This document shows positions 2,575-21,179 of a stretch of 34,312 bases of DNA, one piece after another. The stretch comes from Acidobacteriota bacterium (lineage in GTDB: Bacteria > Acidobacteriota > UBA4820). Positions within the stretch are counted from its first letter, which is position 1. Each line of letters begins with the position of its first letter. Below the pieces are notes generated by a model. It made no database searches. It was not told the DNA's origin and saw only the letters and a program-made list of their open reading frames with translations. The translations under genes were made by a program, and so were the position numbers. The DNA is taken from assembly GCA_029559035.1 (NCBI GenBank), contig JAKQCT010000031.1, positions 1 to 34,312 on the forward strand. Reading direction: 5' to 3'.

Positions 2575-2577
2575 TCC

Positions 2578-4488: not shown

Positions 4489-5200
4489 CCGCGACGATCC
4501 CCTTTTCCGACACAAGGAAGCAGGAGTATTCGCCCTCTTTTATCCCCGAGGGCCTCAGGGAATTTATCTCTTCTAGGTACTCGCCGCTCCCGAAGAACTC
4601 TATCCTAAGCCTTTTCAGGCACGGACCGCAATCCTCCCCGCTGAAGCAGAAACCGAAAGAAGGCCCGAAGAGAAGTTCCTCGTCCTTGTACCTGTCGCAC
4701 CGGTATCCGAAAGAGCGCGGGAAGAGGACGGCTTTCAGCTTTTTGGAGGCGGGGCTCCTCATCACTTCCAGCTTCATTGAAAAGGACTCTATCTCCATCA
4801 GGCTTAAACATTTATGCTTTTTAAAAAGTCCGTGAAGCGACACGAAATAGCCGTTGTTCTTCAAGGCCCACTCCCCGAATTCCCCTTTCGCGAACGGGGA
4901 CGGCCTCGCCGCCGCCACCGGAGAATTCGCTCCGGCGAAATCCGCGAAGTTCGTTTTCTGGAAGATCGTGATCTCCTCCGCTTTCGCGAAGTAAGGCAGA
5001 AGTTTCCTGTAAGCCGAACGGCATTTTTTTCCTTCGGCGGCGCACAATTTCCCCAGCTCTGTTTTCCCCGCCCCGTAAAGCCCGCGGCTGTCGTATACCT
5101 CTTTCTCGAGGACCCTGACATTCTCCCAGTATCCGTCGCGGGTCATTCCGAGCGACAGGAGAACGAGAGCGGCCGCAAGGACAAGAAGAGCGGTTTTCAA
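4481..5200 (-). CDS. Exported Cys-containing hypothetical protein
   Basis: A 239-aa protein of no family I recognise. It opens with a basic residue and a long hydrophobic run (ALLVLAAALVLLSLG, residues 4-18), a signal peptide or N-terminal anchor, with no lipobox Cys. The mature part has eight cysteines, including CAAEGKKC near residues 53-60 and a cluster CFSGEDCGPC near 187-195, an even number that fits disulfides in the periplasm. The start is a TTG at 5200 inside TTGA, overlapping the stop of the lytic transglycosylase gene, with AGAGG upstream. It ends 8 nt inside the chosen kup start region. Position suggests a periplasmic accessory to the transglycosylase or to Kup, but this is only context. 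Confidence 0.8.
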   Translation of the reverse strand: MKTALLVLAAALVLLSLGMTRDGYWENVRVLEKEVYDSRGLYGAGKTELGKLCAAEGKKCRSAYRKLLPYFAKAEEITIFQKTNFADFAGANSPVAAARPSPFAKGEFGEWALKNNGYFVSLHGLFKKHKCLSLMEIESFSMKLEVMRSPASKKLKAVLFPRSFGYRCDRYKDEELLFGPSFGFCFSGEDCGPCLKRLRIEFFGSGEYLEEINSLRPSGIKEGEYSCFLVSEKGIVAGE

Positions 5201-7182
5201 TTTGAAAGCCTCTGGGTGTAGACCGACTTGTCGAACAGCACCCCCTCGGCGTAGCCCTGCGTCTCGAAATAGGGAATGAGCAGTACGAAAAGCGTCTCAT
5301 CCTCGCCGAAGCTTTTGCTCCAGACCGAAACGACATCTTCTCCGGCGTTGTAGGAAGCGGCTATACGCGCGCTCATCGGAAAAACGGCCGCGAGCTGTTT
5401 CATGTAGCGGGCGGCGATCCTCGCGTTCGTGAGAGGGTCGAGGAGATCTTCTTCCGAGACGTCTTTTCCAGATATCTTCTTCGCCGTCTCGGGCATGAGC
5501 TGGAAAAGGCCCACTGCTCCAACGCTTGAAAAGGCCAGCGGGTCGAACCTGCTCTCCCTGCGGGCTATCGCGAACATGAGCGCGGGATCGACGCCTTCCT
5601 CCCTGGCCGCGAGCATTATCTCCCTCCGCCACGGCGTGGGATGGCTCAGGCCCACACGGTAATCGAAATCCGAAGGGAACTCGAAGCAGAGCTCTCCTAT
5701 CTCCGAAAGGAGCATCATCCTGGTTATCGCGTCTTCCCTGGCAAGCTCCGTTCCCCGCCTCTCAAGCTGATCCAGCGCGAACAGGGGGAGTCCTGCGCGA
5801 TACAGGTCGTATATCAGGGAGTTTCCGTCGATCTTTCCAGAAAAAAGCCTTTTCCTGAAAACCGCGACGGCCGCCGCGGTCTTTTTCGCGAACTCCCTGT
5901 CGGAAACGGAGGAATAGTAGGAACCCGCGGGGATCGGATCGCCTTCCGCCTCGAGGGAATACCATTTCTTCAGAACATACAGCGAACGCTCCCTGAACCC
6001 GTCCTTCTCTTCAAGGAGCGGGGCGAGAAGCCCTTCCGGGCCCTTTCCGAGGGCGATGCTGGAAAGCGCGCTCTTGTAAAGGGCGTTCCTGTAGAACTGC
6101 CCTTTCTTGTCCGCTTTCACTGCCTCGAACAGAGGGACGGCCTCGGCGAACCTGCCGTTGACATAGTGGAAACAGCCCATGGCGTAACTGTTCTCGAGGA
6201 ACAGCTTGTGGTCCTTGGGAAGGTTTTTCCCGAGCCATTTGAAATAGCTCGCGGCGCGGTCCGCATCGTTGGTCCTGAGGGTCGCCCACAGCGCTTTCAG
6301 CACGGTGCCCCTGTCCCCGTTCGCTATCGCGCCCGACTTTTTAAGGACCTCGTCGGCGAGACAGAACAGTTCGTCGTTCTTCCTCGCCCGGTAAAGGATC
6401 TGCGTCAGGAGGATGCTGTTCTCCTTCTCCTTCGGGAAGGTCTTGTAGAGGTCGAGAGCGTCCCCGGTCCTGCCGCAGTTCAGAAGCTTGTTGATCAGCT
6501 CTTCCTTTTGCTTCTGATCCGCCGGCGGGTAGTCTTCGGCGCCCATTGCCTTGTAGGCCTTGAGCGCCCTGCTCCCGAAAGGGTTGGGGGTGAGGTCGAA
6601 CGCGATCGCCCTGTACATGCGCTTCGCCCTGGCCTCCGCTCCCGACAGCTGCCAGGCGAGAGCCTCCCTGAAGAGCGCCTCCTTTTTTTTCTGCTTGCCG
6701 AGGTTCTCGATGGCCCCGATCTCGCTCCACGCGAGCGCTTCCTTTCCGTGAAGCTTAAGGCGGCCATATATCGCTGCTTTTTCCCTCAACAGCCTGTACC
6801 TGAAATATGCGCCGGGAGTGCCGTCCCTGATGGTTTCTACCTGTTCCAGGGCTTTCTCCGGCATCCCCCTGGCCATAAAGATCCTCGCCAGGTTGAACTT
6901 GATGTAGTCTCCGAGCTCTTCGGACGAAGAGGCGCCGATCATTCCGTCAAGAGGCGCCGAAAGGTCCCCGAGGTCGAGGAGAAGCTGGGAATAGACGAGC
7001 GCGACCATGGGATCCGCCGTTTCCGCAGGCCCGTTCATCAGGCGGAAGGCCTCGTCGAGGGCGGCGGGAAGGTCCCCCTCGTCCTGCAGGGCGAAGAGCG
7101 CTTCAAGCCGGTCGCCGTCTCCCATCGGGAAAAGCGACAAAGACGCTATCAGAAGAAGAACCGCGGGTTTGGATCTCATCAT
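5197..7182 (-). CDS. Soluble lytic murein transglycosylase, Slt70-like
   Basis: A 661-aa exported murein-cleaving enzyme. Residues 1-20 form a signal peptide. Residues about 25-500 are alpha-helical with TPR/superhelical character, like the doughnut domain of Slt70. Residues about 515-645 are the catalytic SLT domain (GH23). It begins at HPTPWRREI and has the catalytic glutamate E543 in IARRESRFDP, then SSVGAVGLFQLMPETA and the substrate-binding AASYNAG (about 608-614). Length and domain order match the Slt70 family. The ATG at 7182 shares one base with the stop codon of the sigma-factor gene (TGATG), and the 3' end overlaps the next gene, so it is firmly inside the heat-shock operon. Cleavage of peptidoglycan in the periplasm is established for the family. 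Its control by HspR is inferred from the operon. Confidence 0.93.
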   Translation of the reverse strand: MMRSKPAVLLLIASLSLFPMGDGDRLEALFALQDEGDLPAALDEAFRLMNGPAETADPMVALVYSQLLLDLGDLSAPLDGMIGASSSEELGDYIKFNLARIFMARGMPEKALEQVETIRDGTPGAYFRYRLLREKAAIYGRLKLHGKEALAWSEIGAIENLGKQKKKEALFREALAWQLSGAEARAKRMYRAIAFDLTPNPFGSRALKAYKAMGAEDYPPADQKQKEELINKLLNCGRTGDALDLYKTFPKEKENSILLTQILYRARKNDELFCLADEVLKKSGAIANGDRGTVLKALWATLRTNDADRAASYFKWLGKNLPKDHKLFLENSYAMGCFHYVNGRFAEAVPLFEAVKADKKGQFYRNALYKSALSSIALGKGPEGLLAPLLEEKDGFRERSLYVLKKWYSLEAEGDPIPAGSYYSSVSDREFAKKTAAAVAVFRKRLFSGKIDGNSLIYDLYRAGLPLFALDQLERRGTELAREDAITRMMLLSEIGELCFEFPSDFDYRVGLSHPTPWRREIMLAAREEGVDPALMFAIARRESRFDPLAFSSVGAVGLFQLMPETAKKISGKDVSEEDLLDPLTNARIAARYMKQLAAVFPMSARIAASYNAGEDVVSVWSKSFGEDETLFVLLIPYFETQGYAEGVLFDKSVYTQRLSN

Positions 7183-8048
7183 CAGTTGAGGCGGCGCAGT
7201 AGGTCGTTCACCTTCTGCGACCTCTTGAGCTTCCTGAGGGCCTCTTCCTCGATCTGCCTCACCCTCTCGCGGGAAAGGCCTATGATCTTCCCGACCTCCT
7301 TGAGGGAAAGGTCTTCGTCGTCGACGAAACCGTATCTCAGGAGAAGCACTTTCCTCTCCTTTTCCGAGAGCTCCGCGAGGCAGGCGTTGAGGATCTCCTT
7401 CCTTGCCTTTTCTATGAGTATCTCGTCTCCCGTCTTCCGGTTGTTGTCGGCGATCTTGTCCTTGAGCAATATGTCCACGTCGTTGTCGGCTAGAAGCGGT
7501 TCGTCGAGCGAGAGCATCTCGTTCTTCGCCTGTACCACCTCGCAGACATCAGACTCCTTTATCCCGAGCATTTCCGCGATCTCGGCGGAGCTGGGCTCCC
7601 GGTTGAGGCTGCGGGTCAGTTCGCTCCTGGCTTTCTGGACGTTGTTGAAAAGGGTCGCCTTCTTCTGCGGAAGGCGGAGCGGGCCGCCCTGGTCGGAAAG
7701 GGCCCTCTCCATGCTCTGCGTTATCCACCAGTCCGCGTAGTGGACCAGCTTGATGTTCTTGCCGGGGTCGAAGCGCCTCGCCGCTTCGATCAGGCCGAGG
7801 TTCCCCTCGTGGATGAGATCGAGGAGCGAAAGGCCCCTGTTCTGGAATCTCTTGGCAGTATGAACGACATAGCGGAGGTTCCTGGAGATGAGCTCCGTGA
7901 GAGCTTCGGCGTCCCCGTTCTCCCTGTACCTTCTGCCGAGCTCCAGCTCTTCTTCAAGCGTCAGAAGGGGCTTCTTGGAGATCTCCTTCAGGTATTGCTT
8001 GAGTATGGCTGATTCGGGATCGGCCTGTCCCCTGTTATCGCCTGCCAC
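7182..8048 (-). CDS. Sigma-70 family RNA polymerase sigma factor (RpoD/RpoS/RpoH-like)
   Basis: A sigma factor of 288 aa from the GTG at 8048, with no large region 1.1. Region 1.2 is PESAILKQYLKEI. Region 2 holds RNLRYVVHTAKRF, LLDLIHEGNLGLIEAARRFDP and YADWWITQSMERAL, and is followed by region 3. Region 4.2 is LSLKEVGKIIGLSRERVRQIEEEALRKLK. The size and the intact regions 2-4 fit a group 2 factor (RpoS-like) or a heat-shock factor; the LPQKKATLFNNVQKAR segment is loosely reminiscent of the RpoH box, but I cannot assign a class. The longer ORF starts at a TTG (8081) and overlaps hspR by 47 nt. The GTG at 8048, with AAGGGGG about 11 nt upstream, cuts the overlap to 14 nt and is preferred. It lies directly after hspR and before a lytic transglycosylase gene. 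Confidence 0.93.
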   Translation of the reverse strand: MAGDNRGQADPESAILKQYLKEISKKPLLTLEEELELGRRYRENGDAEALTELISRNLRYVVHTAKRFQNRGLSLLDLIHEGNLGLIEAARRFDPGKNIKLVHYADWWITQSMERALSDQGGPLRLPQKKATLFNNVQKARSELTRSLNREPSSAEIAEMLGIKESDVCEVVQAKNEMLSLDEPLLADNDVDILLKDKIADNNRKTGDEILIEKARKEILNACLAELSEKERKVLLLRYGFVDDEDLSLKEVGKIIGLSRERVRQIEEEALRKLKRSQKVNDLLRRLN

Positions 8049-8457
8049 TTCCCGGATCCCCCTTGTCGAACATTTTTTCAACTGACGTCGGCGACAGGCA
8101 CGCGAGCGCAGCTTCGCGGACCTCCTCCCTCGAAACCCCCTTTTTGGCCATCTGCTCCATGAAGAACTGCATGAAGTTGTTGACTTCCTCCTGCATCTTC
8201 GCCATTTTCTCCCGCATGTTGAGGACTATCTCCACCCCGGCGAGGTTCACGCCGAGGTTCCTGGTGAGGTTGAGGATCAGTTCCAGCCTTTCGATGTCCT
8301 CGTCGGTATAGACGCGCGTGTTGCCGCTGGTCCTTGAAGGCTTGAGCAGGCCGTCCCTCTCGTAAAGCCTGAGCGTCTGGGCGTGGATCTCGAAACGCTC
8401 GGATACCGTGCTGATCATGTAGTAACCCTTCTTGTCCTTCCGCTCGCTCCGTTTCAC
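8035..8457 (-). CDS. hspR: MerR-family heat-shock repressor HspR
   Basis: A 140-aa MerR-type regulator. The N-terminal winged helix-turn-helix includes ISTVSERFEIHAQTLRLYERDGLLKPSRTSGNTRVYTDEDIERL (broken here at about residues 15-58), the HspR pattern of TLRLYE followed by GNTRVY. A helical dimerisation region with NLGVNLAGVEIVLNM follows. HspR proteins repress dnaK operons by binding HAIR sites, and in Streptomyces DnaK acts as co-repressor. Here the gene is fourth in the operon after dnaK, hsp20 and dnaJ, and a well-matched HAIR site overlaps the dnaK promoter, so autoregulation is strongly implied. The start is a GTG with GGAGAG about 5 nt upstream. The gap to dnaJ is 19 nt, and the 3' end overlaps the sigma-factor gene. 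Confidence 0.92.
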   Translation of the reverse strand: MKRSERKDKKGYYMISTVSERFEIHAQTLRLYERDGLLKPSRTSGNTRVYTDEDIERLELILNLTRNLGVNLAGVEIVLNMREKMAKMQEEVNNFMQFFMEQMAKKGVSREEVREAALACLSPTSVEKMFDKGDPGSGRR

Positions 8458-8476
8458 GGCTCTCTCCGCGCTTCCT

Positions 8477-9571
8477 TCACAGCCCCATCTTCTTCCTGGG
8501 GTTCTCGGGGTTCAAACGCTCGAATTCCCTTAAAAGTTCCTTGCTCTTTTCGTCGATGACGTCGGGCACGGAAATGTAGACCTCGACGAGGAGGTCTCCC
8601 GAGCTTCCTCCCAGGAGCGAAGGCATCCCCTTGCCCCTGAGCCTGAAGACCTGGCCCGAACCGGTGTTCGGCGGGATCTTGAGAAGCGTCTTGCCCGTCA
8701 TCGTGGGTATCTCGATCTTCGCACCCAGCCCTGCTTCAGAGAACGTTACGGGAAGCCTCACCTTCAGGTTGGGCCCCTCCCTTTCGAAAAGATGGTCCTT
8801 CGTTATGTGCGTCTCGATGAAAAGCGACCCGGAGGGTCCGCCGAACTTTCCCGCTTCGCCTTTCCCCTTGGCCCTGATCCTTGATCCCGTATCGACCCCG
8901 GCCGGGATGGTCACTTCGATCTTGTCAACGGCGTCCTTCCTCCCGGAGCCCCCGCAGGAAGCGCAGATCTCGCCCGGGTTGTTCCCGGTCCCGCCGCAGT
9001 GCCTGCATGGCCTCGCGAACTGGAACGGCCCCTTGGAAATGCCCTCCTTGCCGCTGCCGCCGCACTTGGGGCAAGCTCCGCGCCTCGCCGGCGCCGTCCT
9101 TCCGGAGCCTCCGCAGGCGGAACAGGGGGTTTTGTGGGGAACGGTCAGCTTGACCTTCTTTCCCGAGAAAGCTTCATGAAGCGTCAGCGTTACGGGGATA
9201 ACGATGTCCGAACCGCTCTCCGGCCTGTTATCGGGCTGCCTTGCGCCCTGGAAAAAGGACTCGAAAATGTCGCTGAAATTTGCGGCGCCGCCGAGATCTT
9301 CGAAGTTGAACCCCTCGAAGTGCACTCCCCGTCCGCCCTGCGGCGGAGCGAAATCCTCGACGTAACCCCTCGTGTCGTATTTCTTCTTTTTATCAGGGTC
9401 CGACAGTATCGCGTACGCCTCCGATATCTCCTTGAACCTGTCCTCGGAGCTCTTGTCGCCCGGATTTAGGTCGGGGTGGTACTTCCTCGCGAGGCGCTTG
9501 TAGGCTTTCTTCACCTCGCCGAGCGGGGATTTCGGGGGAAGCTCGAGAACGGCGTACAGGTCCCTCGCCAT
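8477..9571 (-). CDS. dnaJ: Chaperone protein DnaJ
   Basis: A 364-aa type I Hsp40 that stimulates the DnaK ATPase and delivers substrates. The J domain is at residues 1-70 with the HPD motif in KYHPDLNPGD. A short Gly/Phe-rich linker (about 75-110) follows. The zinc-binding region has four CxxCxGxG repeats (CSACGGSG, CPKCGGSG, CRHCGGTG, CASCGGSG), and the C-terminal substrate-binding barrels follow. It is slightly shorter than E. coli DnaJ (376 aa). The ATG directly abuts the TAG stop of hsp20 with no spacer, so translation is probably coupled. The gene order dnaK-hsp20-dnaJ-hspR lacks grpE, which must be elsewhere in the genome. Confidence 0.97.
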   Translation of the reverse strand: MARDLYAVLELPPKSPLGEVKKAYKRLARKYHPDLNPGDKSSEDRFKEISEAYAILSDPDKKKKYDTRGYVEDFAPPQGGRGVHFEGFNFEDLGGAANFSDIFESFFQGARQPDNRPESGSDIVIPVTLTLHEAFSGKKVKLTVPHKTPCSACGGSGRTAPARRGACPKCGGSGKEGISKGPFQFARPCRHCGGTGNNPGEICASCGGSGRKDAVDKIEVTIPAGVDTGSRIRAKGKGEAGKFGGPSGSLFIETHITKDHLFEREGPNLKVRLPVTFSEAGLGAKIEIPTMTGKTLLKIPPNTGSGQVFRLRGKGMPSLLGGSSGDLLVEVYISVPDVIDEKSKELLREFERLNPENPRKKMGL

Positions 9572-10003
9572 CTACCTGACCATTATCTTCTTCTTTTCGG
9601 ATCTCTTCGGAAGCATCAGCGTGAGGACACCGTCGGTGAGGGAAGCCTCCACGTTCTTGGGGTCGATCGTGGAGAGGAAGGTGAACTCCCGGGAAAAGCG
9701 GCCGAAGAACCGTTCCATCCTCTGCACGTTCTTGGGGGCCATTTCCTTGTCGGCCCTTCTCTCGCCCTCCACCCTGATGGACCTCTCCTCGCATGTGACC
9801 TCGATGTCGCCTATCTCCACTCCCGGCAGTTCCATCTCCACGTAGAAAGCAATTTCGTCCTCGCAAATGTCGGTCGGTGGGGACCAGGAGAACGACGGTT
9901 CGGATTCCGGCGCCACGCCGGGCTCCATTATGTCGGAAATGATGTGGTTGAGTTTTCCCTGAAGTTCTGCGAGGTCTTTCAGAGCGCCTTTCCTGGTTGG
10001 CAT
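9572..10003 (-). CDS. Small heat-shock protein, Hsp20/alpha-crystallin family
   Basis: A 143-aa ATP-independent holdase of the cytosol that keeps unfolded proteins soluble for DnaK/DnaJ. The alpha-crystallin domain covers about residues 45-143, with FYVEMELPGVEIGDIEV, SIRVEGER, ERFFGRFSREFTF and the beta-9 motif DGVLTLMLPK. The tail is short and ends in KKKIMVR, without a clear IxI motif. The ORF is open to 10087, but I choose the ATG at 10003 because AAGGAG lies 6 nt before it and the upstream codons look non-coding. It follows dnaK after a 108-nt gap that carries a stable hairpin. It ends base-to-base with the dnaJ start. Confidence 0.94.
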   Translation of the reverse strand: MPTRKGALKDLAELQGKLNHIISDIMEPGVAPESEPSFSWSPPTDICEDEIAFYVEMELPGVEIGDIEVTCEERSIRVEGERRADKEMAPKNVQRMERFFGRFSREFTFLSTIDPKNVEASLTDGVLTLMLPKRSEKKKIMVR

Positions 10004-10086
10004 CGCGGCTCCTTTCCCGGCGAAGAGAAGCGGGGGCGGGCTTACCCAAGCTCGCCGTCCCGCTCGCCTCACCATTTTACCACTCA

Positions 10087-10110
10087 TTCTCCGGCTTTGC
10101 GCCCGGAGAA
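10087..10110 (-). other. Intercistronic hairpin between dnaK and hsp20
   Basis: An 8-bp perfect stem, TTCTCCGG with CCGGAGAA, closed by an 8-nt loop, directly after the dnaK stop codon. No U-run follows, so it should not be a full terminator. A role in partial attenuation, mRNA processing or 3'-end protection of the dnaK message is likely, as seen in other chaperone operons. Confidence 0.6.
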
Positions 10111-10111
10111 C

Positions 10112-12022
10112 CTACTTCACGTCCTCGAACTCGGCGTCGATGACATCCCCGCCCTTCTTCTGGGAGGAGTCTCCCTGCGGAGGCGGAGGCGGGGCTTCGC
10201 CCTGTTGCGGGTTCTGCTGTTTCGCCTGGTCGTACAGGAGCTGAGCGAGGCTCTGGCTCGCCTGGTTGACCTTGTCTATCCCCTGGCGGATCTGGTCGAG
10301 CCCGCCCGTTTCCTTGACCTTCTTGAGCTCGTCGATAGCCTCTCTGAGCCTCTGCTCTTCCGCGGCGGGGAGCTTGCCCGCGTTCTGGGAAAGGAGTTTC
10401 TCGGTTGAATAGATTATCTGATCGGCCTGGTTCTTCGCCTCTATCTCGTCCTTTCTCTTCGCGTCATCGGACTTGTGGGCCTCGGCCTCCCTGACCATCT
10501 TGTCGATCTCGTCTTTCGTGAGGCCCGAAGAAGCCGTGATGGTTATGCTCTGCTCCCTCTGCGTGGCCAGGTCCTTGGCCGACACGTTCAGGATACCGTT
10601 CGCGTCGATGTCGAACGTGACCTCGATCTGCGGGGTTCCCCTCTGGGCCGGCGGGATCCCTCCGAGCTTGAAGTTACCGAGGGTCTTGTTGTCCCTTGCA
10701 AGAGGCCTCTCGCCCTGGAAGACGACTATCTCGACCTCGGGCTGATTGTCCGCCGCCGTGGTGAAGACCTCTTTCCTTCTGGCGGGTATCGTCGTGTTCC
10801 TCGGGATCAGAGGTGTGGCCACTCCGCCGAGGGTTTCGACTCCGAGGGTCAGCGGGGTGACGTCGAGCAGGAGGATGTCCTTGACATCCCCCGCGAGGAC
10901 GCCGGCCTGTATCGCCGCGCCGACCGCGACCACCTCGTCGGGGTTCACGCCCTTGTGAGGCTCCTTGCCGAAGAAATCCATCACCATCTGCTGGATCTTG
11001 GGTATCCTAGTCGAACCTCCGACGAGGACCGCCTCCTGTATATTGCCGGGAGTGAGCTTCGCGTCGCGGAGCGCCGCTTCGCAGGGGCGCATCGTCCTCT
11101 GGAATATCTCGAAGGAAAGGTTCTCCATCTGGGCCCTGGTGATTTTGGTCACGAGATGCTTCGGCCCGCTGGCGTCGGCCGTTATGAACGGAAGGTTGAT
11201 CTCCGCCTCGAGCGTCTGCGAAAGCTCCACCTTCGCCCTTTCCGCGGCTTCCTTGAGCCTCTGGAGCGCCATCGGGTCCTTGGAGACATCGATGCCGCTC
11301 TCCCTCCTGAAGTTCTCGACGATGAAATCTATCAGCACCTTGTCGATGTCGTCACCGCCCAGGTGGGTGTCGCCGTTGGTGGCCTTGACTTCGATCACGC
11401 CTTCGCTCACTTCGAGTATAGAAATGTCGAAAGTTCCGCCGCCGAAATCGTAGACGGCTATCGTCTCCTCTTTCTTCTTGTCCATCCCGTAGGCCAGCGC
11501 CGCGGCCGTGGGTTCGTTGATTATCCTCATCACTTCGAGGCCGGCTATCCTTCCTGCGTCCTTCGTGGCCTGCCTCTGCGAGTCGTTGAAGTAGGCGGGA
11601 ACGGTGATGACCGCCTGCGTGACCTTCTCTCCCAGGTACGATTCGGCCGCTTCCTTGAGTTTCCTGAGAACCATCGCCGAGATCTCCGGAGGCGAATATT
11701 TCTTTCCCTTGATGTCCACGAAAGCGTCGCCGTTGTCGCCCGGGACCACCGAGTAGGGAACGGTCTTCATCTCTTCGCCTACTTCTCCGAAGCGTCTGCC
11801 CATGAACCTCTTTATTGAGAACACCGTGTTCAGAGGGTTCGTCACGGCCTGCCTTTTCGCGACTTTTCCGACCAGGATCTCGCCTTTGTCGGTGAAGGCG
11901 ACCACCGACGGAGTTGTCCTGTCTCCCTCCTGGTTGGGGATGACGACAGGGGTTCCGCCTTCCATCACCGCCACCACAGAGTTGGTTGTTCCGAGGTCGA
12001 TTCCGATTATCTTCTTTGCCAT
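10112..12022 (-). CDS. dnaK: Chaperone protein DnaK (Hsp70)
   Basis: A 636-aa ATP-dependent cytosolic chaperone, full length. The nucleotide-binding domain starts at [20 protein letters not shown] and includes [33 protein letters not shown] and [13 protein letters not shown]. The linker [13 protein letters not shown] and the substrate-binding domain follow, and the C-terminus has the bacterial tail [11 protein letters not shown] after a proline run. The ORF is open 33 nt further upstream. The ATG at 12022 is chosen because the universal DnaK N-terminus starts there and AAAGGAG lies about 8 nt before it. It is the first gene of the operon, about 56 nt downstream of the predicted transcription start. 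In HspR systems DnaK is also the co-repressor, which gives a feedback loop. Confidence 0.98.
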
Positions 12023-12084
12023 TTCTCTGTCTCCTTTACCCCCTCGCGTTTCCAAAACCTTCGGGGAATCTTTAGCAAGACGAT

Positions 12085-12193: not shown

Positions 12194-13330
12194 TCATTCC
12201 CCCGAGCACTTGAAGCCCGAAGAGAGCGCGATCTGACCCTTCACCATTTTGGGTTTCCAGAAGGCGTTGCCGGCGAAACCGGCGTCGATCTCGGCCCACG
12301 CCCTTTTTACTGCTTCCGCGTTCTTTTCGTTGTCGAGCGCGGCGAACCTGCCGGTCGAATCTCCTTCGGCTTTCTGGTGTATGTCGATGGCCCTCGTCAT
12401 TTTCGAGCAGGAAAAGTCGAGGACGGAGATGTCTATCCACTTCAGGGAGGGCTGTTCAGAGGTCCTGAAATAGAGCTTTTTACCCGTTATGTCGTAAACC
12501 AGGGTCCACTTGTTGTTTCCGAGGTCGGCCTTTTTAAGAGCTCTGAAAGCGAAGTCGACGGAAGGCTCGGTCTTCGGCGGTTCCCTGAACATCAGGGCAG
12601 CCCACCTGAATCTGGGATCCTCCTTTTCATATTTCGGCGCCGGGTCCTTGCCCCCTCCGAAACCCTTGTAATTGAGGATATCTTTAAGTTCAAGGTCGTA
12701 CCTGTCGTTTCCGAGGATCGTGTAAGGAAGCTTCTCTCCTGAATAAACGACCGGTTTTCCTCCGATGAACTCCACGACCGCGGCTTTGCCGTTCTTGTCC
12801 GCGAGGAAGAAATGCCACTGGCAGTGCCCTTCCGGAAGGGCCGTCGACAAGCTCGAAAGGGCCTCGTCCACCGTGGCGAAGTTATCAAGGAGGTACTGCA
12901 TCCAGTGATGATGATAAAACCCCGCGACGTCTTCCCTCGCCGGCCATTCCGTCCCCATGAGGGTCATCTCGCCGACATAAAGGCCCGCTTCGTTAAGCCC
13001 TCCGTCGGGGAACTCTTTTCCGAAAACGTTGTAAGTCAGCGACCCGTATTTCGAAACCCATCTCAGCCTGCGTAATCCTCGGCCTCTCTCTCCGGCTTTG
13101 ATGTCCGAGTAGGAAATGTTTTCCTTCGAAACCCCTCTCGGGTTTATCACGATCAGGCCGGGCACCTTCATGTTCTCGTCCAGGTTGTGGCCGACGAGAA
13201 GAGAGCCTTCCGACGGGAAAAGGAAAGTAAAACAGGACCTTTGTCCCATCGGGCCGGTCCGCATGACGACGAAAGCGGCAATTATCAATATCGAGACAGA
13301 AAGAACCATTTTAATGGACGCATATTTCAT
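12194..13330 (-). CDS. Exported Ntn-hydrolase, choloylglycine hydrolase/penicillin acylase-like
   Basis: A 378-aa protein of the linear amide C-N hydrolase (C59-like) group. An N-terminal hydrophobic segment (about residues 7-24) directs export. The likely nucleophile is Cys33 in RSCFTFLFPSEGSLLVGHNLDE, the pattern of the mature N-terminus of this family, which would be freed by processing. Other family signatures are DGGLNEAGLYVGEMTL and DKNGKAAVVEFIGGKPVVY. The usual Arg of the GRNxD motif is His here, which may alter the substrate. Known members cleave bile-salt amides, penicillin V or N-acyl signals; the substrate here cannot be told. The TTG at 13348 is possible, but the ATG at 13330 with GAGGTG 5 nt upstream is better. 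It is a single-gene unit with its own promoter. Confidence 0.82.
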   Translation of the reverse strand: MKYASIKMVLSVSILIIAAFVVMRTGPMGQRSCFTFLFPSEGSLLVGHNLDENMKVPGLIVINPRGVSKENISYSDIKAGERGRGLRRLRWVSKYGSLTYNVFGKEFPDGGLNEAGLYVGEMTLMGTEWPAREDVAGFYHHHWMQYLLDNFATVDEALSSLSTALPEGHCQWHFFLADKNGKAAVVEFIGGKPVVYSGEKLPYTILGNDRYDLELKDILNYKGFGGGKDPAPKYEKEDPRFRWAALMFREPPKTEPSVDFAFRALKKADLGNNKWTLVYDITGKKLYFRTSEQPSLKWIDISVLDFSCSKMTRAIDIHQKAEGDSTGRFAALDNEKNAEAVKRAWAEIDAGFAGNAFWKPKMVKGQIALSSGFKCSGE

Positions 13331-13347
13331 TTTTTCACCTCGAGACA

Positions 13348-13376
13348 ATATTATCCCATTCAGGCCCTAAGTTCAA
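13348..13376 (-). promoter_or_regulatory. Putative sigma-70 promoter of the Ntn-hydrolase gene
   Basis: Minus-strand TTGAAC (13376-13371), a 17-nt spacer and TAATAT (13353-13348). The implied start near 13341 leaves only about 11 nt before the ATG at 13330, just enough for the GAGGTG ribosome site, so the leader would be very short. Confidence 0.45.
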
Positions 13377-13448
13377 ATTCTGTTCAGTTGTTGGTTCAAG
13401 TTTAATTTTCAGGAATCAAACCACCACATAATACATCCATTTTTTCTA

Positions 13449-13652
13449 TCAGCACTTTATCTTGCGTTTAAAACCATACTTTTCGATATCTAAACCATTT
13501 GATTTTGCTGGCTTTTTTTCTGTTACGCTATCCCCGGAAAGTATAACTACAACATAACAAGTCGTATCTTTATCGACACTGCCGGTTTTGTTGAAAACAA
13601 ACGATTTAAATCTCCTACGCAAATTGTGGCTCCATTGTTGTATCTCATTCAA
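13449..13652 (-). CDS. Doubtful small ORF in the AT-rich intergenic region
   Basis: 67 codons from a TTG, with no good ribosome site. The reading frame extends protein-like for several codons upstream (IERRDV before the TTG) and then meets a TAA. The product is basic, with CYVVVILSGDS in the middle and a KRKIKC end. I recognise no family. The region is clearly more AT-rich than its surroundings. It could be a relic of a gene, or the enhancer region of the sigma-54 promoter that happens to be open. Confidence 0.2.
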   Translation of the reverse strand: MNEIQQWSHNLRRRFKSFVFNKTGSVDKDTTCYVVVILSGDSVTEKKPAKSNGLDIEKYGFKRKIKC

Positions 13653-13704
13653 GACATCACGGCGTTCAATTCTGCCGAAAAGCCTTTAAAAAACGACATT
13701 TATG

Positions 13705-13721
13705 TTGGCATTGTTTTTGCT
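13705..13721 (+). promoter_or_regulatory. Sigma-54 (RpoN) promoter of the large secreted-protein operon
   Basis: TTGGCA at 13705-13710 and TTGCT at 13717-13721 match the -24 (TTGGCA) and -12 (TTGCT) elements. The invariant GG and GC are separated by exactly 10 nt. The start should be near 13732, about 110 nt before the chosen ATG at 13841. The 250 nt upstream are AT-rich and could hold enhancer-binding sites; I see no unmistakable dyad there. Confidence 0.72.
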
Positions 13722-13840
13722 ACCATTATCCGGAAACTGAACAGGGAGTGTCGATGAAGTCTTTTTCGAAAAACAAATTCTTCATTCGGTCCGGGAGGGG
13801 TCCGTCTTCTCCTGTTTGCACCCGTTCAAAAGGAGGGATC

Positions 13841-16800
13841 ATGTCTATCGGAAAGAAGTGCGAATGTTCAATTCAAGGTTGCACCTTACTGATCGCGGCA
13901 GTTTCATTTTTGTTTATCTGCGCGGTCCCGGCGGCCGCCCAGGACGTCACGCTCTACATCACCAAAAGCAAGCCGGCGGCGGATTGGCAGGCCGACCTTA
14001 ACTGGACCCAGGGGCCTTTCACCGGCCAGAATTACGAGATCAGGAGAGGCGTCGACGCCGCCACCCTTGTTTCTGGAGCGGCTTGGAGGACCCTGCCGAC
14101 GCTCTCCACTACCGATACCGATCTTGGATATGCGGGACTTATCTTCTACGACATCAAACCGGTATCGCCGACCCTGATGTTGTCATGGGAGGGCGTCACC
14201 CCCGATCTTCTGGACGACGGGTTCATGCCTGATCCCGTAGAGCCTTACGCCGATGCCGTCGAAGATCTCACGATAAGCGGAGACCCCTCAGAATTCCGCG
14301 TCGTGCTGACGAGCAGCCTGGGTTACATGCCCGCGACGATAGAGCTTTATCTGGACCGTAACGCTGACGGGGATTACAATGACGCGGGCGAGACGATACC
14401 GCTCGCAGAATATGATCCCATGGACGCCGATACGACCGACGGCAAGCTCTATTTCGGGCGCCTGGAAGGATTCGAGCCGACAGGAACGGTCCCGACCGCG
14501 GCATCGCCTCTCTATGTCCGCAACGAACTCGGCAACACGAGGTGGGACTTTGCCAACACGACGGGCGAAATAAGCTACAAGTTCAGCGCGACCGACGCTT
14601 CAGGCATAGCCGGCGGCGACCCGACATTCGAAAAGACGCTTATCGCCCTGAATACGGCTCAGGAACTGATAGACGATCTCGGAAAGCCCGTGGTGGCGGC
14701 TGCTACCTGCCCGAACCCGACGGACTGGCAGACCGCTCTCGTTTATTTCGAGGAAGCGGAGGCAAGGGTCGCTCCTTCCAGCCCATACAACCTCGCGTCC
14801 GAGCCGAACAGGAACATGTATTACCTCAACGCGCTTCTCGCTTCGGCGATCGCCGAGACCGGATACACTCTTCAGAACTATCACTCCCTTTTCGAGACGC
14901 CCGACACCAAGCGCTACAGGGACACGATGCTCGACTGGAAGCTCTTCGCGGACGAGCAGGTCCTAAGGATGGAGCATCTCTCGACTTGGGCGCTGAGCGA
15001 ACCGAACTCTCCCTGGGAGTTCCAGTTCCCCGGCTTCTGCATGTACCTCGAAGATACAGGCTCGGGAACGCCGTTCGTGAATATCGCAGGCCTCGCTTCC
15101 GCCGGCTCAGCTTTCGGCCTTCCTATGGCGGATCCTTCGACGCCATTCTCGCCGATCATCGGATTCGCGAACTCCCTTGCTCCAAAGGCAGATAAAGGCT
15201 CGGGCAACACCCTGGCCGGGTCCGCCGACCCGATCTACACTTTCCCCCAGGCTTACTGGGACCGCGCGGACGCCCACATGCTCGCCGCCCTCTTCAGGGG
15301 ATGGAGAGCCTCCGCGATCGCCGCAAGGGTTTACGAGAACGCCGGCGCGGCAAGGCCCGTCACCGCGGGCGACCTCGAAGCGATCGACACCTGGCTTGAA
15401 GCCGAAGACGACGCCGAAGCTCATTACAAGTGCGACCCCGAGCCGTGCGCCCCCCTGAACGGCATCGACGACGACAACGACGGCCTCGTCGACGACCTCG
15501 GCTACGCCGCGAGGGTCTTCGAGACCTTCGACGGAGTGGGGATCTACAGCCCCGATCCCGCCAACGGCTGCACCCTCGAAACCGCCGCCAACGACGCGAG
15601 CGCAGCTTCGAAGCATCTGCGCGAGGCGTTCAAGACCGTGCTTAAAGAAACGGACATCCAGGCCGACGACGCCACGATAATGTACGGCGACGGAGGGAAC
15701 CACCCGCCGCTCTTCATCGACATCGACAGCTACAACGGATTCCTGGCGGACGGCGTGACCCCCTGCCCGGACCCCGAGAACTGCGCCGACGGAATGCCCG
15801 ACCTCCAGTGGGTCCCGGGCCAGTTCCTTCCCGCCCCCTGGTGCCCCCCCGCCCAGGCGGGCGATCCCGAGCCCCCGCTTTACAACACCCCGATCTCGAT
15901 CAGGGGAGGACTCAGCGACGACATCACCTGGTGGATGGAACAGCTCATCGACGCCTATAACGAGATGATGGGAGACACGCTCAGCGAAGACTGCTATCCC
16001 GAAGCCTGGATGGATACGCTCTTCGCCACCGACTGGGGATACACATGGGAACAGGCGGTCGCGGACACTACTCCCCACTACGTGATGAACTTCCGCGACG
16101 ACATTGAGGAAATGCTCGCCGACCATGACATCGACCCGGCGGACCTCGGCGCCGACTTCCAGACCTTCCTGAACTACGCGGAAAGCATCGACGTCAGGCT
16201 GTTCGTCGAGAATCCCGAGAACGTCAGGAACTATGTCCCCTACTATTGCCCCACCCACACCGAACCGATCTGCGGCGAAGCCGAGAACTACACATTCAAC
16301 GGCTTCTGGGGCGACTGGGACGAGCCGTGCGATCCGATCGTCCCCGGCAAGTTCTGGACCATCGAGCCGTTCGCGATCTTCAACCAGGATGCGAACGGAA
16401 TACTAGACTCATCCTGCGATCCATCGAATCTGGGAACTGACAGCGACTGCCTGCAGGTTTCATGGAACGACAAGGACGGAGACGGCGAGTTCGACATTTT
16501 CGAACCTCTCCTGATGGCGGACCAGAACACTCCGATAAACTACATCGACCTTAACGGCGACGGCCAGTGGAACGGCTGGTCGGACCGCGACCACAAGAAA
16601 GCGCTCTATGCCGGCGAGCCGGCCGATCCGGGGCAGGGACTTTACAACGCCCTCTATGTCTATTTCCAGGACCCGACCTTCGGGGGAAGGCTGCCCGGAA
16701 TGACGAATGAAGGGCTCAACAATTTCGTAAGCGCTGCAGCGGGCCTTGGCGACGGGATACTCGAATTCCCCTCGGACAACCACCATCCGACCAACTACCA

Positions 16801-17062
16801 CATGGTTGAAGAGCCTCCGACCGCTCCCGGCGCGAACCTGCGGCTCGTCATCACGGCGACGGACCCTGACGGCGACACTCTGCATTACCACCTCGTCCTC
16901 CCTTCGAGCTGGAGCGGAACGGAAGTGATCGTCGACGGAAACAGCACAGGCGTTTACGAGCTTGCGGCGCCCGCGGGAACGTGGGGATTCGTCGGACTGG
17001 TTTACGACAACGTCAACAACCTCAACGACATCGTCGGGACATACCTGACGATAACGAGGTAA
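13841..17062 (+). CDS. Large secreted protein with Asp-rich Ca-binding-like motifs (MopE-like segment)
   Basis: A 1073-aa exported protein without a recognised enzymatic domain. The ORF is open from a GTG at 13748, but the ATG at 13841 has AAAGGAGG close upstream and starts a clear signal peptide (hydrophobic LLIAAVSFLFICAVPAAAQ, cleavage after about residue 34). Acidic Ca-binding-like loops occur at about residue 172 (DRNADGDYNDAGE), at about 540 (NGIDDDNDGLVDDLGY, the MopE-like metal-binding pattern), and at about 877 and 903 (DKDGDGEFD, DLNGDGQWN; dockerin/EF-hand-like). Several Cys-Pro-rich stretches lie between. There is no C-terminal anchor or sorting motif. It is the first gene after the sigma-54 promoter and is followed 67 nt later by a second giant secreted protein. 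A surface, matrix or filament role is plausible, not shown. Confidence 0.85.
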   Translation: MSIGKKCECSIQGCTLLIAAVSFLFICAVPAAAQDVTLYITKSKPAADWQADLNWTQGPFTGQNYEIRRGVDAATLVSGAAWRTLPTLSTTDTDLGYAGLIFYDIKPVSPTLMLSWEGVTPDLLDDGFMPDPVEPYADAVEDLTISGDPSEFRVVLTSSLGYMPATIELYLDRNADGDYNDAGETIPLAEYDPMDADTTDGKLYFGRLEGFEPTGTVPTAASPLYVRNELGNTRWDFANTTGEISYKFSATDASGIAGGDPTFEKTLIALNTAQELIDDLGKPVVAAATCPNPTDWQTALVYFEEAEARVAPSSPYNLASEPNRNMYYLNALLASAIAETGYTLQNYHSLFETPDTKRYRDTMLDWKLFADEQVLRMEHLSTWALSEPNSPWEFQFPGFCMYLEDTGSGTPFVNIAGLASAGSAFGLPMADPSTPFSPIIGFANSLAPKADKGSGNTLAGSADPIYTFPQAYWDRADAHMLAALFRGWRASAIAARVYENAGAARPVTAGDLEAIDTWLEAEDDAEAHYKCDPEPCAPLNGIDDDNDGLVDDLGYAARVFETFDGVGIYSPDPANGCTLETAANDASAASKHLREAFKTVLKETDIQADDATIMYGDGGNHPPLFIDIDSYNGFLADGVTPCPDPENCADGMPDLQWVPGQFLPAPWCPPAQAGDPEPPLYNTPISIRGGLSDDITWWMEQLIDAYNEMMGDTLSEDCYPEAWMDTLFATDWGYTWEQAVADTTPHYVMNFRDDIEEMLADHDIDPADLGADFQTFLNYAESIDVRLFVENPENVRNYVPYYCPTHTEPICGEAENYTFNGFWGDWDEPCDPIVPGKFWTIEPFAIFNQDANGILDSSCDPSNLGTDSDCLQVSWNDKDGDGEFDIFEPLLMADQNTPINYIDLNGDGQWNGWSDRDHKKALYAGEPADPGQGLYNALYVYFQDPTFGGRLPGMTNEGLNNFVSAAAGLGDGILEFPSDNHHPTNYHMVEEPPTAPGANLRLVITATDPDGDTLHYHLVLPSSWSGTEVIVDGNSTGVYELAAPAGTWGFVGLVYDNVNNLNDIVGTYLTITR

Positions 17063-17129
17063 CAGAAAGAGAGAGCAGGGGGCTCCGATGTTTTGTTTCA
17101 GAAAAGCAGAGAAGAAGGAGAGGTGCGGA

Positions 17130-20100
17130 ATGTTTTACGATGAGATAAAAAAACTCATCTTTTATGCGGCAATGACGGTCATTCTTGCCGCCGGGACAGG
17201 ATCAAACGCCGCGGTGATCGATACCAAGACGCTCGACAGACCGGCCGAAGCGATCATCGTCACCGGCGCTCAAACGCCCAATTTTACCTCGCTTAACCTC
17301 CAGGTAAATCCTGCCGATGCGACTTTGAGTCCGAACCAGATCTTCGTCTGGGCATACGACGAAGGAACGGGCTGGAGGCAGGTGGTCTTCCAGATCGACG
17401 AGATAAACAACGCATACCCGCAGGCGCCCCCCCCCATTTGCTCTCCCCAGGGATCGCACATAGGGTTGGGTCCGAATCACATGGAGGCAGATGACGGTTT
17501 GTGGGACGCGAACGACGAAATAATCTTCATGAGCGATGAAACCGGAGACAGAGTATCTGCAGACGAATGGGCTCCGGAAGCCGTCACGACATCTCCTCGT
17601 TACGAGATCGTCGTCGCGGACCCACTGGACACGAGCAAAAAAGGTTGGGTCTATATCTTCAGACATGATACTTTGCCGACCTGGAGGACCGACGACTATG
17701 TGTCATGGAACGAAACGAACAATACAGTCTCCGCTTCCAACTACATTGTCGATTACAACAACACCGATGCCAATGCCGTAAGAATAGACGCACTATCGGT
17801 CACTACAACCGGCGGCGGAACCGGCACGGACATGGTCCAAACTTCTCTCCAATCCTGGAACGGCGGGTTTTCCATTGATTGCACATCAAATGAAACGGCC
17901 ATAAGAACGCAGGGCACCATAACAGGCGGTACTAATTGCGATTCCTGGAGTATTCCATGGTACGCCAAAGACGGCAGAGTGAGAGTCCTTCGCTATTATG
18001 TCTGGATGCCAACCTGCTGGGCCGCGTCCAACGGCGTCGGAATGTGGCCCGCAACTCACCATTATTACTACAAATCGTACTGGCATGAATACGAGAACGA
18101 TAAGTGGCACGGTGGAAGCAGTCATACAAACTACTGGTTTGTCAGGATGAACCACGTAAGCTCCGTCAATATGACTTTCTACGACAGCAACGGCGAAACG
18201 GCGACAATAGACGGAACGGCGGACACTATCGCGGCAACACCTTTGTGGACATGGTACCAGGTCTCATCCTCCCTGGGGAGCTACATAAAAGTCCTCAGGA
18301 ATAAAGCCAAACTTGTAAGCCCGGACAGCCGCATAAACCTTTACACGGACAGCGGAACAGGCAGCAGGGGCAGCGCCGGGTTTCGAATCGAAAACCCTAC
18401 TGAAACGACCGAGAACGCCTGGCATAATTATTATTACTTCATGCTTCCTTCGAACGCCGCGAATCAGGGTTCGACCTACAATACGAATGTCGATAACCCT
18501 CTCACCGACACCGGTACCAGCCAGAACTACATAGCCTCTCCACCCGAGTTCGCGGGGATACAGTCGGTCGTGGATGTGGGCGGCGCATGCGCCGACGAAG
18601 GCGTTCAGGTCAACTGGACGGCCGTCTCCAACTGGAACGACAGTTGTTCTTCCGGCTGCACTACGCGAAGATACGAGATCAGCAGGGACGGATCGGTGAT
18701 CCACACGGTTACCGATACGGCCGCAACCTCCTGGACAGATTCCACGGCAAACAACAACGTTGCCTACGACTACAACGTCGAAGCGTGCAACAATCTCGAC
18801 ACTTGCACGGAGCTCGGGAACACGATCGAGGGTACCGACCATGTCCATTCCGAACCGACCCTGAGCAGTTCCGCGACAACCGCGACGGACATCAGCGGAT
18901 GCACGGGTGAAGGTCTCAACATAAGCTGGGCCGCGCCATCCGACTGGGGGGACAACGGCGAGGGAACAAGGAGCTACGCCCTTTACGGCAGCGCCGACGG
19001 ATATACTACCCCCATCGCAACCCCCGCGACTTCCCCCTACATTCACGACGCGGAGAACGGCGTCAGCCTTCAGTACAGGATGAGGGCGACGAACGGATGC
19101 GGCGATTTCACGAACTACTCGGCTAGCGCTTCGGTCGCCGACAATGTGGGAGCGATCCCCGCTCTTCCGGGAGACATCGCCGTTTCCGTCTCCGATATCG
19201 ACTGCTCTCTCACGGGCATCATGGTCTCCTGGAACCCGGTCGTATCATGGAACGACAACGGCGAAGGCTCGGCCCGTTATGACCTTTACAGATCCGACAA
19301 TTACTCTGTTCCGGTGATGAGCGGCGTCTCCTCTCCCTTGACATACCTGCCGGGGAATTCGAATTCATATTCATACAGGATCGTCGCGGTCAACGGCTGC
19401 GGGATGACCTCCAGCTACGCCGATTCGGCTTCGATCGCCGACGCCCAGTCGGCTCCCGCGTTCGCGGGGGTCCAGGTCGTCCAGGACACTGACGGCTGCA
19501 GCGACTCCACGCTTACGATCTCCTGGATCGATGTCGAGGGGGATGGTGAGGCAGGATGGAACGACGGCGGCTCGGGCCCCTCCACCCGCTACTATCACAT
19601 TTACAGGAACGGCGCGGAAATCCCCGGCTCGCCCGTAGCCGACGGCGTCACTTCGATAACCGACAACCCTCCGCTGACCGATACTTATTACACCTACTCC
19701 GTACGCGCGAACAACATGAACAGCTGCTGGACGGACGGCGGTACTTCTCTGTCGGGAGCGGACTATGTCGGGATGTCCCCTGTGGCCGCTCCGGCCCAGA
19801 CGACAGCCGCAGAAGACTGCAATGCCGCCACGGGAGTGACGGTCACCTGGGACGCGGTCGTTGACTGGGGCGACGGAGGGACCAACGCGGCAAACAGGAG
19901 ATACAGGCTCTACTTCAGCCGCGACGGTTTCACCAACATCATCAAGAGCGGCGGCTCTTCCACGGCATCCTTCACATACAAGCCGGTCGACAGGGGCGCT
20001 TACATTTACAGGATAGTGGCGGTCAACGGCTGCGGACGGACCATCCTCTACGCCGACAGCGCGGCGACGGCCGACCTCAGTTCCTGCGCGCCGACCTGCA

Positions 20101-20972
20101 CACTACTTCTGAACAACGATTTCGACGCGTCGAACGGCTTCACCGAAGCGTGCAACGGCGGGACGGGCATGTGGTCCGTCACTCCGGGAGCAGGCAAGGA
20201 TGGAACAGCAGCCTGGGTCTGCGACATGAACGCGGCGACCGATTGGACATCTTCCATCGAAATGACCACAGCATCCAATCTGATCTGGCAGGAGGACGTA
20301 AAGCTGAGGTTCTGGTCATCCTGCAACCTTTCTTCCGACGACGCCGGAGTGTTGGAGGTCTTCACCAACGACGCCGGGGCGTGGGTCAAGGTGGTCCTTC
20401 TGCCCTATCCCGCATTCGAAGCCGAAGTTCCTTCATCCATCGAAGGCAACTGTCAATCCGGAACACCCGGCGGAATACAGCCCGCTTTCCAGGGAAGCGT
20501 GGCAGGCGGTTATTACGAGGCGAGGCTTGACGATTACCTCACGGGATCGACCACTCAGATGAAGGTCCGTTTCCGCGCAGCCTCGGGAAGCGCCGCCGGA
20601 GCCTCTTCCTGGGTGATCGACGACGTGAAGCTGGGATACGGGATAACCGACAACATCTATTTCTGGTCTTACGGCGGAACCCCTGAACTGGGCGTTATCA
20701 AGGACGGGGTGGACGGATACGGCAGCGAGGGGATATTCAGGTGGGAGGACGGAGGCATATACCAGACGAGCGAGTTCAGGATCTACAGGAGCGAGAACCC
20801 TGCGAACATCAGGACCGACGCCACTTCTTTTCTCGCGTGGACGGAACCGGACGACGACGACCCTTACTACGAATACCAGACCAGCGACGGCGTGATGACC
20901 GTTCCGGTCTATTTTTACAAGATATACGGCTACAAGGATCCCTGCGGCGAAAGCGACCAGGGGGAGAACTGA
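17130..20972 (+). CDS. Giant secreted protein with five tandem Fn3-like modules
   Basis: 1280 aa from the ATG at 17130 (GAGGTG 5 nt upstream); an ATG at 17088 is an alternative. Residues about 8-31 are a signal peptide. The N-terminal third (to about residue 470) resembles exported proteins with VFQIDE and WDANDEIIFMSDETGD motifs. Five Cys-containing Fn3-like modules of about 100 residues follow, starting near C487, C591, C692, C790 and C897; several end in a repeated YRIVAVNGCG and YADSA signature. A MAM/jelly-roll-like segment spans about 990-1166 (LLNNDFDASNGF to WVIDDVKLGYG), and then a last Fn3-like piece. This is a modular adhesin or extracellular scaffold by architecture. The partner is probably the preceding 1073-aa protein, expressed from the same sigma-54 promoter. 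Confidence 0.87.
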   Translation: MFYDEIKKLIFYAAMTVILAAGTGSNAAVIDTKTLDRPAEAIIVTGAQTPNFTSLNLQVNPADATLSPNQIFVWAYDEGTGWRQVVFQIDEINNAYPQAPPPICSPQGSHIGLGPNHMEADDGLWDANDEIIFMSDETGDRVSADEWAPEAVTTSPRYEIVVADPLDTSKKGWVYIFRHDTLPTWRTDDYVSWNETNNTVSASNYIVDYNNTDANAVRIDALSVTTTGGGTGTDMVQTSLQSWNGGFSIDCTSNETAIRTQGTITGGTNCDSWSIPWYAKDGRVRVLRYYVWMPTCWAASNGVGMWPATHHYYYKSYWHEYENDKWHGGSSHTNYWFVRMNHVSSVNMTFYDSNGETATIDGTADTIAATPLWTWYQVSSSLGSYIKVLRNKAKLVSPDSRINLYTDSGTGSRGSAGFRIENPTETTENAWHNYYYFMLPSNAANQGSTYNTNVDNPLTDTGTSQNYIASPPEFAGIQSVVDVGGACADEGVQVNWTAVSNWNDSCSSGCTTRRYEISRDGSVIHTVTDTAATSWTDSTANNNVAYDYNVEACNNLDTCTELGNTIEGTDHVHSEPTLSSSATTATDISGCTGEGLNISWAAPSDWGDNGEGTRSYALYGSADGYTTPIATPATSPYIHDAENGVSLQYRMRATNGCGDFTNYSASASVADNVGAIPALPGDIAVSVSDIDCSLTGIMVSWNPVVSWNDNGEGSARYDLYRSDNYSVPVMSGVSSPLTYLPGNSNSYSYRIVAVNGCGMTSSYADSASIADAQSAPAFAGVQVVQDTDGCSDSTLTISWIDVEGDGEAGWNDGGSGPSTRYYHIYRNGAEIPGSPVADGVTSITDNPPLTDTYYTYSVRANNMNSCWTDGGTSLSGADYVGMSPVAAPAQTTAAEDCNAATGVTVTWDAVVDWGDGGTNAANRRYRLYFSRDGFTNIIKSGGSSTASFTYKPVDRGAYIYRIVAVNGCGRTILYADSAATADLSSCAPTCTLLLNNDFDASNGFTEACNGGTGMWSVTPGAGKDGTAAWVCDMNAATDWTSSIEMTTASNLIWQEDVKLRFWSSCNLSSDDAGVLEVFTNDAGAWVKVVLLPYPAFEAEVPSSIEGNCQSGTPGGIQPAFQGSVAGGYYEARLDDYLTGSTTQMKVRFRAASGSAAGASSWVIDDVKLGYGITDNIYFWSYGGTPELGVIKDGVDGYGSEGIFRWEDGGIYQTSEFRIYRSENPANIRTDATSFLAWTEPDDDDPYYEYQTSDGVMTVPVYFYKIYGYKDPCGESDQGEN

Positions 20973-20975
20973 TAG

Positions 20976-21095
20976 ATGGGCCCCATTCTGGATGTCAGGA
21001 TCAAAAAGGCGATCATCTGGACATTCTTTCTTTTGCTGGGGGTCGCGATATTCCTTCTGCTGGAGAAGATAACCCAGTTCCTGGCCTTGAATTGA
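20976..21095 (+). CDS. 39-aa single-TM microprotein
   Basis: ATG at 20976, 3 nt after the stop of the giant Fn3-like protein, with GGGGGAG about 10 nt upstream (inside that gene's 3' end). The product is MGPILDVRIKK followed by a strongly hydrophobic segment (AIIWTFFLLLGVAIFLLLEK, residues 12-31) and a short polar tail ending FLALN. That is a classical one-span membrane microprotein with a basic N-terminal flank. It lies before the operon's terminator, so it is cotranscribed with the two secreted proteins. It could help anchor, export or regulate them. I know no family. Confidence 0.7.
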   Translation: MGPILDVRIKKAIIWTFFLLLGVAIFLLLEKITQFLALN

Positions 21096-21150: not shown

Positions 21151-21179
21151 GGGGCACCGGACACGGTGCCCCCATTTTT
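21151..21179 (+). terminator. Rho-independent terminator of the sigma-54 operon
   Basis: A perfect 9-bp stem, GGGGCACCG with CGGTGCCCC, a 4-nt loop GACA, then CATTTTT. The U-run lies on the plus-strand side only, so it serves the plus-strand operon, 56 nt after the microprotein stop. Confidence 0.9.

Follow-up and report, generated by a model that had tools for sequence, protein, structure and literature searches.

A near-consensus sigma-54-like motif stands upstream of two long genes for secreted-looking proteins in a bacterial contig, and the question that it raises is whether these genes are transcribed from it. The window, that is, the whole stretch of 34,312 nucleotides analyzed here, is the entire contig C92 of genome G000, whose assembly comprises 2.86 Mb in 99 contigs and is 95.35% complete. 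Our preferred answer, to which we assign a probability of about 0.6, is that the site is probably an ordinary sigma-54-dependent promoter, serving a secreted-protein operon of narrow distribution.

The motif and the genes downstream

The sequence TGGCATTGTTTTTGCT occupies positions 13706-13721 of the (+) strand, directly preceded by a T, and differs at a single position from the pattern TGGCAC-N5-TTGCW. Its -24 box is TGGCAT (13706-13711) and its -12 box TTGCT (13717-13721), with ten nucleotides between the GG at 13707-13708 and the GC at 13719-13720. A sequence-only reading had reported a near-consensus sigma-54 motif with exact GG-N10-GC spacing, located 120 to 136 nt before the ATG of a 3.2-kb gene, and both statements hold: TTGGCA starts at 13705, TTGCT ends at 13721, 120 nt upstream of the ATG at 13841, and this ATG opens a 3,222-nt frame on the same strand. 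Two features by which sigma-54 promoters are recognized are present in the site, namely, GG-N10-GC within near-consensus boxes and a placement upstream of a gene on that gene's strand. The intergenic region that contains it is 492 nt long (13349-13840), has a GC content of 39%, compared with 56% for the window, and is bordered on the left by a divergent choloylglycine-hydrolase-like gene (12194-13348, -). No clear activator site was seen in 13349-13845, which contains just short, imperfect inverted repeats, and no protein encoded on this contig matched the sigma-54 activator domain.

If transcription begins 12 nt past the GC, the predicted 5' leader, as estimated from the spacing, spans 13732-13840 (+). 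A riboswitch or another structured leader was considered and rejected: the window has no Rfam match at the gathering cut-offs, and 187 of 200 shuffles fold as well as or better than the predicted leader.

The first gene (13841-17062, +) codes for a predicted secreted protein of 1,073 aa and the second (17088-20972, +; start at ATG 17088 or at the inner ATG 17130) for one of 1,294 aa, repeat-rich and likewise predicted to be secreted. ATG 13841 is preceded by AAAAGGAGGGATC and is likely the true start of the first gene, rather than the GTG at 13748 chosen mechanically, because the orthologue in the related genome G002 begins at a matching Met. GTG 13748 and ATG 13754, the latter with GGGAG before it, are less likely starts, as an in-frame stop closely precedes the ATG of the orthologue. 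A possible third ORF (20976-21095, +) would encode a 39-aa membrane-type protein with one hydrophobic stretch; no counterpart was seen downstream of the orthologue in G002. Farther downstream, an intrinsic-terminator-like hairpin followed by a T-rich tail lies at 21151-21172 (+). The terminator scan gave six such sites in 4.6 kb, against a shuffle mean of 3.7, and the hairpin at 21151-21172 is the one richest in G-C pairs. The arrangement makes it fair to suppose that the two genes are carried on a single transcript.

By eye, both proteins have signal-peptide-like N termini and are rich in repeats, with Asp/Gly-rich or fibronectin-like stretches, and these two traits suggest that both are probably surface or matrix proteins. 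Neither reaches the cut-off of any Pfam or NCBIfam family. A match of the first protein to Mob1/phocein (E 1e-4; 22.8 bits, below the Pfam cut-off of 27) was dismissed as implausible in a bacterial protein that is secreted, and the second gave weak matches to beta-sandwich-type domains, all below cut-off. A PDB sequence search with the two proteins returned weak matches only (E values of 0.035 and 0.39), and the structure predicted for residues 40-491 of the second had a mean pLDDT of 28 and was unusable. The earlier description of "two giant secreted proteins" is borne out as to the N termini and to a two-gene unit that is conserved (see below), but "giant" overstates proteins of this length. 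The suggested link to pili, exopolysaccharide or community behaviour found no footing: the proteins belong to no family above cut-off, and no pilin, pilus assembly, flagellar or polysaccharide gene was matched among the window proteins scanned, a subset of the ORFs.

Other genes of the window include one for a sigma-70-family factor (7182-8081, -), with dnaJ, a gene for Hsp20 and dnaK next to it (7182-12055); the factor may serve the heat-shock response and have these genes as targets. A gene at 32867-33871 (-) combines RhuM-family and Fic/DOC domains, and a tandem pair of Kup-type potassium transporter genes is found at 664-4515 (-).

Chance matches and competing promoters

The motif might instead be a chance match within AT-rich intergenic DNA, with the operon transcribed from another promoter, either one of sigma-70 type whose consensus does not suit the scan described below or that of another sigma factor. 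We regard this as a tentative explanation that deserves serious attention, at odds short of even. The whole window was scanned, and one or more sites within one mismatch of the pattern turned up, on one strand or the other, in 89 of 200 dinucleotide shuffles of it (mean, 0.565), showing that the motif alone is unremarkable in 34 kb. In contrast, when 13349-13840 only was shuffled, such a site appeared on the (+) strand in just 37 of 5,000 cases and on either strand in 53 of 5,000. Motif, position and orientation taken together are moderately remarkable, at about 0.7% for the region, a value that is uncorrected for about a dozen other upstream regions; since the window holds perhaps a dozen of these, we estimate the corrected chance to be nearer one in ten.

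The upstream region was also scanned for sigma-70-like promoters scoring at least 8 of 12, the -10 box being required to have A as its second base and T as its sixth. The (+) strand of the 492 nt contained none, whereas 475 of 500 shuffles contained at least one, and a second promoter scan of the region gave one sigma-70-like site, on the other strand only. This absence speaks against the chance explanation and favours the sigma-54 reading, provided that the lineage's own sigma-70 consensus resembles the one scanned for.

Genome-wide counts cut both ways. Throughout G000, 27 places match the sigma-54 pattern either exactly (3) or with one mismatch, compared with 71 for the reversed control pattern; the number of such sites thus shows no excess, as would be expected of chance matches. 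Their placement does show an excess: 9 of the 27 are intergenic, compared with 34 of the 380 hits (8.9%) that 60 permuted patterns gave in these stretches (binomial P, 0.0004). Intergenic here means outside ORFs assigned by a crude rule (minimum length 100 aa, longest taken first), and such sequence makes up 10.05% of the sample. Near-consensus sites are thus enriched between genes in this genome, which weighs against chance.

The nine intergenic sites are a mixed set. Several are poorly placed: two are antisense to neighbouring genes, one lies 177 nt upstream of a tRNA-Ser and one has no gene in reach. Some, on contigs C87, C48 and C15, resemble textbook promoters. The site on C48 precedes a gene for a small YHS-like protein, whose YHS match is below the Pfam cut-off. 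On C87, the exact consensus TGGCACGGCAATTGCT (33668-33683, -) is found 23 nt upstream of the ATG of a gene for a secreted-looking DUF6600-domain protein. Another exact match, on C15 (23423-23438, -), is followed by the ribosome-site-like GGAGGTGG and a tiny ORF of roughly 15 codons, and an rpiB-like gene lies 190 nt beyond that ORF. A tenth site, at C15:28286, falls barely inside the end of an ORF and is 33 nt upstream of the ATG of an activator gene.

The first protein turned up in 2 of the 396 phylum members searched, G002 and the window's own genome, and likewise in 2 of 60 in a smaller sample; a contig search for further orthologues of the second protein gave none, and one relative, UBA4820, appeared in a separate alignment. 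In G002, the first protein is represented by two pieces split by a short N run, with identities of 64% and 72%, and the second by an orthologue of 69% identity. Both genes are adjacent there too and form a conserved two-gene unit. The upstream neighbour differs from that in the window, and the upstream DNA of the two operons does not align, with no convincing similarity outside the coding start. The 280 nt upstream of the G002 orthologue contain no sigma-54-like site, even with up to three mismatches, but do contain TTGACA-17-TATTGT, a sigma-70-like promoter matching at 10 of 12 positions, with a TG before the -10 box, 215 nt before the ATG. Its score was reached in 102 of 2,000 shuffles, and together with the TG in 10 of 2,000. 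This contrast lends support to the chance explanation. Conservation before an orthologous gene, a supporting rather than a defining trait of sigma-54 promoters, is lacking here, and sigma-54 control of the operon, if real, would not be common to G002, though G002 has RpoN.

Just before position 7245 of the G002 contig, on the reverse strand, a 20-nt near-perfect palindrome, AGACACTAAAATTAGTGTCT, directly precedes the operon's ribosome site and may be an operator or a hairpin.

The search for RpoN and its activators in the genome

A sigma-54-dependent promoter requires its partners to be encoded in the same genome, and here the picture is split. Activators are present: 13 places in G000 exceed the cut-off for the sigma-54 activator domain, and among the 10 strongest of these 13 matches, which were read individually, 9 carry the loop G[AS][FY]TGA and the tenth does not. 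The GAFTGA-type loop is the part of these proteins that contacts sigma-54, and the genome thus possesses enhancer-binding activators of the kind that a sigma-54 promoter calls for. Searches of this 95%-complete genome with three models (Sigma54_DBD, Sigma54_CBD and NCBIfam RpoN) gave no match for RpoN itself. With Sigma54_CBD, RpoN was detected in 36 of 40 genomes and in 34 of the 35 of good quality, G000 being the sole exception among the latter; the other three genomes lacking it are 64 to 75% complete. RpoN is present in all three same-family relatives, each time with its RpoN box intact.

In these three relatives, rpoN is surrounded by genes whose products look by eye like LptC/A, LptB, Hpf, HprK, RapZ, a PTS component and PtsI. 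Here lptC/A, lptB, hpf, hprK, rapZ, ptsI and mscS are presumptive names, based on inspection of the sequences and on the order that such genes usually have. HprK-like and LptC/A-like queries from a relative had no match in G000, in searches that had no positive control, and a PtsI-like query had a weak, partial match (33%). The peptidase pair that flanks the rpoN cluster in genomes G003 and G001 lies inside a long contig in G000, in a different setting, and no contig edge shows a gap.

These absences, together with the uninterrupted peptidase contig, could mean that rpoN has truly been lost, leaving site and activators behind as relics or the activators at work with another sigma factor. We consider such a loss very unlikely. 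Nine activators retain the sigma-54-contacting loop, intergenic DNA is still enriched in near-consensus sites, and LptD is present in G000, which makes loss of the LptC/A-like genes improbable. Since usual neighbours of rpoN are missing along with it, an assembly hole of about 10 kb among the 99 contigs would account for every absence at once and is the probable explanation, likelier than loss. The particular variant in which rpoN was lost while nine loop-intact activators and promoter-like sites were kept, the activators now being paired with a different sigma factor, seems slightly more improbable still.

No other single reading accounts for the site as well as a sigma-54-dependent promoter does. 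What the sequence-only reading proposed in this respect is partly supported, by the motif and by the activators encoded in the genome; it is weakened by the failure to find RpoN in the assembly and by the absence of the site from the G002 operon.

Proposed mode of action and relation to known systems

According to the sigma-54 reading, RNA polymerase with RpoN, presumably encoded in sequence missing from the assembly, would form a closed complex on the -24 and -12 boxes (13706-13721). An activator encoded in the genome, bound upstream, would reach the polymerase through DNA looping and use ATP to open the complex. The transcript would start near 13732, carry both secreted-protein genes and end at the hairpin at 21151. 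If this is true, the locus adds one more sigma-54-controlled secreted-protein operon, from the uncultured lineage Aminicenantes, and gives a first hint of when the orphan first protein is made; knowledge of sigma-54 itself would be unchanged. In the paper collection searched in full text, no paper pairs Aminicenantes with RpoN or sigma-54, and the word stem "Acidobacteri" does not occur in the main text of a 2025 comparison of sigma-54 regulons (PMC12316311).

The site lacks a nearby activator gene and a clear activator site, and it is not kept in the orthologous operon, in all of which it is unlike established -24/-12 promoters. Compared with the consensus TGGCAC-N5-7-TTGCT of the 2025 regulon comparison (PMC12316311), its -24 box ends in T instead of C, whereas the GG and GC ten bases apart, the TGGCA and the TTGCT are kept, and the motif points at a gene as those promoters do. 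Sigma-54 has commonly been linked to functions of the cell envelope (PMC4551910). Unlike envelope and surface genes under sigma-54 control, the operon encodes proteins of no known family, and the window proteins scanned gave no match to pilus, flagellar or polysaccharide genes; like them, it has secreted, probably surface-located proteins encoded downstream of the sigma-54-like site.
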